DNA of 64,000 nucleotides from Streptomyces harbinensis (lineage in GTDB: Bacteria > Actinomycetota > Actinomycetes > Streptomycetales > Streptomycetaceae), in the NCBI RefSeq assembly GCF_900116145.1, contig NZ_FPAB01000009.1, positions 1 through 64,000 of the forward strand, read 5' to 3'. The stretch's first letter is position 1; each line of letters starts with the position of its first letter. The position numbers and the translations under genes were made by a program. A model generated the notes under the pieces. That model was not told the DNA's origin. It saw only the letters and a list, made by a program, of their open reading frames with translations, and did no database searches. Positions 34,160 to 41,473 of this stretch are shown here, piece by piece.

Positions 34160-35413
34160 TCACCCCGGGTGCCAGTGCGGGAGGCGGCCCGATCGGGGGT
34201 CGGGGAGGCCCAGTTGGTGCAGGCGGTCGAGGGGGGCGAAGGGGTGGATGCCGAGGCCGGCGAGGTTGTAGGTGGCGGTGTAGCGCAGCCTCGGGCTGCG
34301 GTGGGTGCGGCGCAGGGCGCGGCGGCCGAGGGCGCGGGCGGTGCGGCCGGTGGCGGTGACCAGGCGGGCCGCGTCGTGGCTCATGACGGCGATGTGCCGG
34401 ATCCACGGCAGGCGTTCGGCCTCGTAGGCGGCGAGGGCCGCGTCGGGTCCCGGGGCGGTGGCCAGGTGGTGGGCGAGGGCGTGGGCGTCGCAGATGGCGG
34501 TGTTCATGCCCTGGGCGGCCAGGGAGTGGACGGCGTGTGCGGCCTCGCCGACCAGGGCGAGTCCGGGGACGGTGAGGGTGGGGGCGGTGTAGTGGCGCAG
34601 CGCGAAGATCTGGCGGGAGGCCAGAGAGCCGGTGACGCGTTCGGTGAGGGTGCGCAGGGCGGGTGTGTCGTGGTCGAGGGCGGTGGCCCAGTGGGTCATG
34701 GCGGTGCGGTCGGCGCCGCGGATCTCGTCGGGGTGGATCTGGCAGTAGAGGCGGGTGCGGCCGTGCGGGAGGGGATAGACGAGGCGCAGTCCGCGGGGGG
34801 TGCGGTAGGCGGTGATGTCCTCGGGTTCCGGGGGCGTGCCGGGCAGGTCGAAGGCGATGAGCCGGTGGGGGTAGGTGCGGGGGTGGACGGTGATGCCGGC
34901 GGCGCGGCGCAGCCGGGAGGACATGCCGTCGGCGGCGACGACGAGGGGGGCGCGCAGGTCGTGGGTGTCGCGGCCCTGCCGGACGCGGACGCCGGTGACG
35001 CGGCCGGTGGTGTCGTGCAGGAGGGTGTCGGCCAGGGCGCCGCGGCGGAGTTCGACGTGCGGGGGCAGGGCGTGGGCGAGGGTGGTGAGGATGGTGGTGT
35101 GGTCGTGGCTGTAGAGCGTGCGGTAGCCGGCGGGGAGGGTGGTGTAGTCGAAGAGCATGAGGGGGTCGGCGTCCGGGCCGCGGATGGTGAGGCGGGCGAG
35201 GGGGACGGCGCCGGCGGTGGTGAGGCGGTCGGTGATGCCCCAGTGGCCGAGGACGCGCAGGGCGCCGGGCTGGAGGACTTCGCCCTTGGCGATGGCGGGC
35301 CGGTGGTGCTGCCGGTCCAGGACGAGGGTGCGCAGGCCGAGGCCGCCGAGGGCGCGGGCGGTGGCGAGTCCGGCGGCGCCGGCGCCGCAGACGATGGCGT
35401 CCCAGGTGGTCAT
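34160..35413 (-). CDS. FAD-dependent monooxygenase/epoxidase of the meroterpenoid operon
   Basis: The 417-residue protein has the FAD-binding IVCGAGAAGLATARALGGLG (about 7-26), the DG motif VVAADGMSSRLRRAAG (about 155-170) and LALVGEAAHAVHSLAAQGMN (about 283-302), the GD motif of class A flavin monooxygenases (UbiH/squalene-epoxidase/geranylgeranyl-reductase group). As the last gene of an operon with prenylation and cyclase genes, it most likely epoxidises or hydroxylates the prenyl chain, or alternatively reduces it. Its ATG overlaps the stop of the cyclase-like gene (ATGA). In meroterpenoid pathways a flavoprotein commonly forms the epoxide that a cyclase opens. Confidence 0.8.
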   Translation of the reverse strand: MTTWDAIVCGAGAAGLATARALGGLGLRTLVLDRQHHRPAIAKGEVLQPGALRVLGHWGITDRLTTAGAVPLARLTIRGPDADPLMLFDYTTLPAGYRTLYSHDHTTILTTLAHALPPHVELRRGALADTLLHDTTGRVTGVRVRQGRDTHDLRAPLVVAADGMSSRLRRAAGITVHPRTYPHRLIAFDLPGTPPEPEDITAYRTPRGLRLVYPLPHGRTRLYCQIHPDEIRGADRTAMTHWATALDHDTPALRTLTERVTGSLASRQIFALRHYTAPTLTVPGLALVGEAAHAVHSLAAQGMNTAICDAHALAHHLATAPGPDAALAAYEAERLPWIRHIAVMSHDAARLVTATGRTARALGRRALRRTHRSPRLRYTATYNLAGLGIHPFAPLDRLHQLGLPDPRSGRLPHWHPG

Positions 35414-40361: not shown

Positions 40362-41473
40362 AGATTGCCCCGGCGCGCCTGTTCGCGTTCGATGGCTTCG
40401 AAGAGGGCTTTGAAGTTGCCCTTGCCGAAGCCCTGGGAGCCGTGGCGTTCGATCATCTCGAAGAAGACGGTCGGCCGGTCCTGGACCGGCTTGGTGAAGA
40501 TCTGCAGCAGGTAGCCGTCCTCGTCGCGGTCGGCGAGGATGCGGTGCCGGCGCAGGGTGTCGACGGGGAGGTGGGTGTCGCCGGCCCACTGGCCGAGGGT
40601 GTCGTAGTAGCTGTCGGGGGTGTCGAGGAACTCGATGCCGGCGGCGCGCATGGTGGCGACGGAGGTGACGATGTCGTCTGTGGCGAGGGCGATGTGCTGG
40701 ACGCCGGCGCCGCCGTAGAAATCGAGGTATTCGTCGATCTGGGACTTCTTTTTTCCGAGCGCCGGTTCGTTGATGGGGAATTTGACGGTGAGGGTGCCGT
40801 CGGCGACGACTTTCGACATGAGGGCGGAGTACTCGGTGGCGATGTCGTCGCCGATGAACTCCTTCATGTTGGTGAATCCGAGCGCGGTGTTGTAGAAAGC
40901 GACCCAGTCGTCCATCCTGCCGAGTTCCACATTGCCGACGCAATGGTCGATGGAGTGGAAGACGGTGGGCCCGGCGGGGGCGGCGGGTGCCTGGGTGGGG
41001 TGGTATCCGGGGAGATAGGCGCCGCGGTAGCCGGAGCGTTCGACGAGGGTGTGCCGGGTCTCGCCGTAGGTGGCGATGGCGGCGCGGGTGACGTGGCCGT
41101 GCTCGTCCGCCGTCCTGCGGGGCGAGCGCAGTCCGATGGCGCCGTGTCCGGTGGCGTAGCGGTAGGCGGCGTGCACGTCGGGGACCTGGAGGGCGAGGTC
41201 GATGACGCCGTCGCCGTGCCGGGCGACGTGCCGGGCGAGGAATTCGCCGTACTCGGTCTCGGGGCGGACGACGGAGGTGAGGACGAACCGGGCGGTGCCG
41301 GACGCCAGGACGTAGGAGACGACTTCACGGCTGCCGGTCTCGGGGCCCCGGTAGGCGATGGGGCGCATGCCGAAGGCGGTGGAGTAGTAGTGGGCGGCCT
41401 GCTTCGCGTTGCCTACCGCGAACACGACCGCGTCGATTCCCAGCACAGGAAAAACATCGGTATCCCGTTGCAC
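40358..41473 (-). CDS. hppD: 4-Hydroxyphenylpyruvate dioxygenase (homogentisate-forming)
   Basis: From the GTG at 41473 the protein has 371 residues in two vicinal-oxygen-chelate halves. The Fe(II) ligands are visible: His in [14 protein letters not shown] (about 160-175), His in [14 protein letters not shown] (about 243-256) and Glu in [20 protein letters not shown] (about 325-350). It converts 4-hydroxyphenylpyruvate to homogentisate with O2, losing CO2. Streptomyces usually carry a housekeeping copy for tyrosine breakdown. This copy begins an operon with acyltransferase, UbiA, polyprenyl synthase, cyclase and monooxygenase genes, so it most likely supplies the aromatic unit of a meroterpenoid. 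Confidence 0.93.

Follow-up and report, generated by a model that had tools for sequence, protein, structure and literature searches.

The minus strand of contig NZ_FPAB01000009.1 of Streptomyces harbinensis carries a set of six genes within the stretch of 64,000 nucleotides analysed here (the window). They run from 41473 down to 34160 in the order hppD, acyltransferase, UbiA prenyltransferase, polyprenyl synthase, QW-repeat cyclase and FAD monooxygenase. As originally predicted, all six open reading frames are on this strand and carry the expected domains, and three junctions are overlaps of four bases (GTGA between hppD and the acyltransferase gene, GTGA between UbiA and the polyprenyl synthase gene, and ATGA between the cyclase and FAD monooxygenase genes). 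The gap between the polyprenyl synthase and cyclase genes is about 17 bp. The acyltransferase reading frame overlaps UbiA by 131 bp (39093–39223); in the sister genome, L119, the acyltransferase ends before UbiA. Upstream of hppD, a sigma-70-like promoter (TTGACG-17-TTATCG; 41518–41546, minus strand) was spotted by eye about 45 nt before the GTG start at 41473, and the corresponding element in L119 is TTGACG-17-CTATCG.

An iron-box-like palindrome, TTAGGCTTACCTAA, occurs twice in the window (32695–32708 and 41716–41729), preceding a siderophore-interacting protein gene (32726) and a siderophore-binding protein gene (41757), and the six-gene operon is situated between these two genes. Iron-box control of the operon was considered and rejected, given that the palindrome is set some 170 bp ahead of the hppD promoter and adjoins the divergent siderophore gene. 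To the left of the operon, the reading frame at 31665–32708 encodes an IS4-type transposase N-terminal domain.

A gene-neighbourhood comparison, proposed as a check with the original prediction, found the identical six-gene order in four further genomes (five in all): L119 (genome G668), Streptomyces sp. NRRL F-6131, G654 and Streptacidiphilus jiangxiensis. In G668 the six genes are 74–91% identical to those of the window and the flanks are conserved too. In the other three genomes the block lies in unrelated flanks and is followed by a further FAD oxidoreductase. Since the order recurs in four genomes, three of them with different flanks, the six genes form a real unit and not a chance arrangement. 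In all, 49 related cyclase loci were collected by a profile (alignment) search of genome contigs, a search with the window cyclase as lone query having matched nothing. These loci are nearly all actinobacterial, the family numbers about 50, and no relative was found in the plasmid collection. Every one of the five six-gene loci has the membrane acyltransferase (Acyl_transf_3; 39093–40361, minus strand; PF01757, 113 bits), which is missing from all other cyclase loci, and hppD is likewise confined to this group among the 49 named loci.

The first gene, hppD (40358–41473, minus strand), encodes 4-hydroxyphenylpyruvate dioxygenase (HPPD), which makes homogentisate. Its product scores 428 bits against the HPPD equivalog TIGR01263 (cut-off 277) and has the metal ligands of the two-His-one-Glu iron site (motifs IDH, QHIA and FFE), and its nearest solved structure is HPPD 1t47 (E = 5e-189). 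4-Hydroxymandelate synthase, considered in place of HPPD, was rejected in view of the equivalog score and the similarity to 1t47. The genome also contains another HPPD gene on contig 18 (75% identical to the operon copy) and the homogentisate dioxygenase gene hmgA on contig 11. Because this separate HPPD and hmgA have been kept, the operon hppD is probably a dedicated second copy and not the catabolic one.

The UbiA-family prenyltransferase (38159–39223, minus strand; PF01040, 80.6 bits) has both Asp-rich motifs, NEYFDLDAD and DIEGD. By profile it is nearest to the decarboxylative MenA type, and its top NCBIfam profiles are DHNA polyprenyltransferases, all under cut-off. The homogentisate phytyltransferase equivalog NF009525 gave 24.9 bits, short of the cut-off of 226, and a sequence search returned no related solved structure. 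At E < 1e-40, relatives occur in only four other genomes among 394 of the genus; a family-wide search gave more. Relatives that are 53–56% identical adjoin hppD and a PF14249 tocopherol cyclase in five loci of Streptomycetaceae genomes (L104 in G457, L105 in G377, L107 in G447, L124 in G594 and L125 in G479). An O-methyltransferase is found in the four of these clusters that were checked or matched and a COQ5-like methyltransferase in three, and the five look like candidate bacterial tocochromanol-type clusters. PF14249 exceeds its cut-off in only 3 of the 394 genomes of the genus. In a UbiA tree, the window enzyme grouped with the UbiAs of the hppD/tocopherol-cyclase clusters, and this group was well separated from the UbiAs that accompany cyclases in clusters of the aminotransferase and P450/FAH types. 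As its subfamily adjoins hppD in five tocopherol-cyclase clusters, the lineage of the window UbiA appears to be tied to homogentisate, and the enzyme is proposed, by gene linkage, as a candidate homogentisate prenyltransferase. The genome encodes another UbiA from this subfamily (G000, contig 18, 299195–300199); it is 47% identical and has no hppD or cyclase nearby.

This relationship would also suit a redox lipid resembling tocochromanols or plastoquinone, its chroman ring closed by the QW protein: hppD and UbiA are the entry steps to tocochromanols, and the related UbiAs occur in clusters with tocopherol cyclase and a COQ5-like methyltransferase. However, PF14249 has no match in the S. harbinensis genome, the operon has no methyltransferase, the cyclase fold is of the class II triterpene type and a flavoprotein nearly always accompanies cyclases like that of the window, all of which makes such a lipid quite unlikely. 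The tocochromanol-like alternative in the original prediction is not upheld, since the genome lacks a tocopherol cyclase and sister clusters of the same UbiA subfamily have one; for the same lack, a polycyclic meroterpenoid is the likelier product.

Outside the six-gene group, the closest cyclase is found in locus L106, which has the same four core genes (polyprenyl synthase, UbiA, cyclase and FAD enzyme; a set widespread in actinobacteria) without hppD and with supply genes for 3,4-AHBA. Its additional genes encode a BagC/FevH-like 3,4-AHBA synthase, a DeoC aldolase, a 3-hydroxybenzoate 6-monooxygenase-like enzyme and an N-acetyltransferase. With its UbiA 53% identical to that of the window, the 3,4-AHBA supply genes of L106 indicate that this lineage can switch acceptor. 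The operon could then be a variant of a 3,4-AHBA or gentisate cluster, the acceptor being a later product or another phenol, but hppD is the first gene in all five six-gene operons, the conserved block contains no other aromatic-supply gene and the related UbiAs likewise pair with hppD. An acceptor other than homogentisate is therefore regarded as very unlikely, and homogentisate remains the favoured one.

The adjoining gene (37116–38162, minus strand; PF00348, 197 bits) encodes a polyprenyl diphosphate synthase, which probably makes GGPP. The GGPP synthase IdsB model is its second-best curated match (296 bits, under the cut-off of 475), and its first Asp-rich motif, NFTLIHDDMMD, has Phe at position −5. 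Under the established rules for such synthases, this residue and the model match indicate that the prenyl chain of the operon is probably C20. The synthases of other cyclase clusters have small residues at position −5, which suggests longer chains. The window synthase also scores 388 bits against the family 2 encapsulin cargo polyprenyl transferase model NF041169, below its 450-bit cut-off.

The fifth gene (35410–37098, minus strand; SQHop_cyclase_N and SQHop_cyclase_C domains) encodes a non-canonical class II terpene cyclase. Its AlphaFold model (pLDDT 94) has the two-domain class II fold, with a TM score of 0.81 to squalene-hopene cyclase (SHC) 3sqc, and among solved structures it comes closest to SHC, drimenyl diphosphate synthase and human oxidosqualene cyclase (OSC). 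Against the squalene-hopene cyclase equivalog TIGR01507 it scores 108 bits, short of the cut-off of 431. Residues 329–332 are NVLD, and neither the canonical DxDD nor the DCTAE catalytic acid is present. The earlier description of the enzyme as oxidosqualene-cyclase-like is thus accurate for the SHC/OSC fold and fails for the catalytic motif, where Leu occupies the catalytic Asp position. Across the family, this Asp is replaced by Leu, Val or Met in 51 of 53 members, all 53 have Asp or Glu as the last residue of the motif (Asp332 in the window), and the acid-supporting His of SHC (His451 equivalent) is gone in nearly all.

The last gene (34160–35413, minus strand; PF01494, 120.6 bits) encodes a group A FAD monooxygenase, the proposed prenyl-chain epoxidase. 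It scores 22.1 bits against squalene epoxidase PF08491 (cut-off 20.1), and UbiH-type models score higher; the sequence motifs usual for such a flavoprotein are there. A flavoprotein of this kind is near the cyclase in 47 of the 49 loci, and in 40 it is the next gene downstream, in the same orientation. The two loci without one are the only ones that keep an acid where the catalytic Asp would stand, reading ESED at the DxDD position, in relatives from Kibdelosporangium persicum and Amycolatopsis palatopharyngis; their cyclases are sister branches and hence represent one evolutionary event. Epoxide opening can be achieved with a weaker acid than alkene protonation, and because of this tolerance the pattern is taken to mean that the strong acid was lost once the cyclase had become coupled to an epoxidase.

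The flavoprotein might instead be a UbiH-like ring hydroxylase, with the cyclase protonating an alkene of the unmodified chain. Its best NCBIfam matches are indeed UbiH/COQ6 ring hydroxylases (TIGR01988), below cut-off, but the DxDD acid normally needed for alkene protonation has been lost, and the FAD enzyme is kept across differing aromatic acceptors and missing where the acid is kept. Ring hydroxylation is consequently considered unlikely and epoxidation is preferred. The cyclase and flavoprotein form the fixed part of these clusters, and the aromatic-supply genes vary across the family: the modules comprise hppD; a 3-hydroxybenzoate 6-monooxygenase paired with a TrpE-like enzyme; genes for 3,4-AHBA; an aminotransferase together with a TauD dioxygenase; and a P450 with an FAH-family enzyme. 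The UbiA subfamily and the polyprenyl synthase vary along with them. The 3-hydroxybenzoate 6-monooxygenase (467.9 bits, cut-off 459) would direct its module to gentisate, another hydroquinone acid.

One of the ESED cyclases, the distant relative from K. persicum (L079, 4231–5949; NZ_JAAATY010000048), adjoins a polyprenyl synthase and P450s. It is a candidate for the enzyme that cyclises persicamidine, a point left open in the paper describing the compound (PMC10107436).

Taken together, the operon is predicted, with a probability of roughly 70%, to make an acylated polycyclic homogentisate meroterpenoid, every chemical step of which we infer. HPPD would convert 4-hydroxyphenylpyruvate to the tyrosine-derived hydroquinone homogentisate, and the polyprenyl synthase would supply a prenyl diphosphate whose chain is most likely C20. 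These would be coupled by UbiA, and the carboxyl group would probably be lost in the process; MenA and the plant homogentisate prenyltransferases prenylate with such a loss. The flavoprotein would then epoxidise one alkene of the prenyl chain, and the class II cyclase would protonate and open the epoxide and close the rings. As this enzyme lacks the standard catalytic Asp, the replacement acid is likely to be the conserved Asp332 or a different conserved acidic residue, for example Asp271. Finally, the membrane acyltransferase would acylate a hydroxyl group. The gene identities and outline of the originally proposed route agree with everything tested, its tocochromanol option is not supported, and its chemistry stays at the level of prediction.

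Several known systems resemble parts of this route. The window cyclase shares the two-domain fold and QW repeats with SHC and OSC, but is only about 21% identical to SHC by structure alignment, lacks the equivalents of the DxDD acid and His451, and has a different expected substrate, a prenylated hydroquinone. MstE, the merosterolic acid cyclase of Scytonema (6sbb), is a class II enzyme whose structure was solved with the prenylated aromatic acid geranylgeranyl dihydroxybenzoate; it is smaller (about 350–370 residues, with Asp109 as the residue studied) and matches the window cyclase weakly in sequence (54 bits). The tocopherol/plastoquinone pathway of plants and cyanobacteria has HPPD and a UbiA-family homogentisate prenyltransferase in common with the operon, but uses a tocopherol cyclase where the operon has a flavoprotein and a class II cyclase. 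Prenylation followed by epoxidation and cyclisation is the sequence expected in the bacterial meroterpenoid field. Phenalinolactone is a diterpenoid on isoprenyl diphosphate and not an aromatic meroterpenoid; its route in Streptomyces has, according to the title of its description, sequential prenylation, epoxidation and cyclisation, as proposed here.

A bacterial meroterpenoid and a non-canonical class II cyclase also appear in the title of a further report (2024/25; doi 10.1039/D4SC06010E), whose cyclase may well belong to the family of the window enzyme. The novelty originally claimed is accordingly narrowed: the homogentisate variant looks new, whereas the core gene set is widespread and a related non-canonical cyclase seems, from that title, to have been published. 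No published cluster with these six genes was found in the literature searched, which omits most subscription journals, and homogentisate is absent from a 2023 review of actinomycete terpenoids.

At even odds, these operons represent a new natural-product class of acylated polycyclic homogentisate meroterpenoids, made by a large actinobacterial family of class II cyclases that gave up the canonical proton donor once coupled to a flavoprotein epoxidase and that draws on interchangeable aromatic-supply modules. The predicted compound class is absent from the literature searched, and the cluster, being only six genes, should be easy to express. The operon would link homogentisate, an intermediate of primary metabolism, to a terpene cyclase family in Streptomyces. 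Within that family, the acid kept without an epoxidase and the acid lost with one provide a natural comparison for how class II cyclases initiate catalysis.
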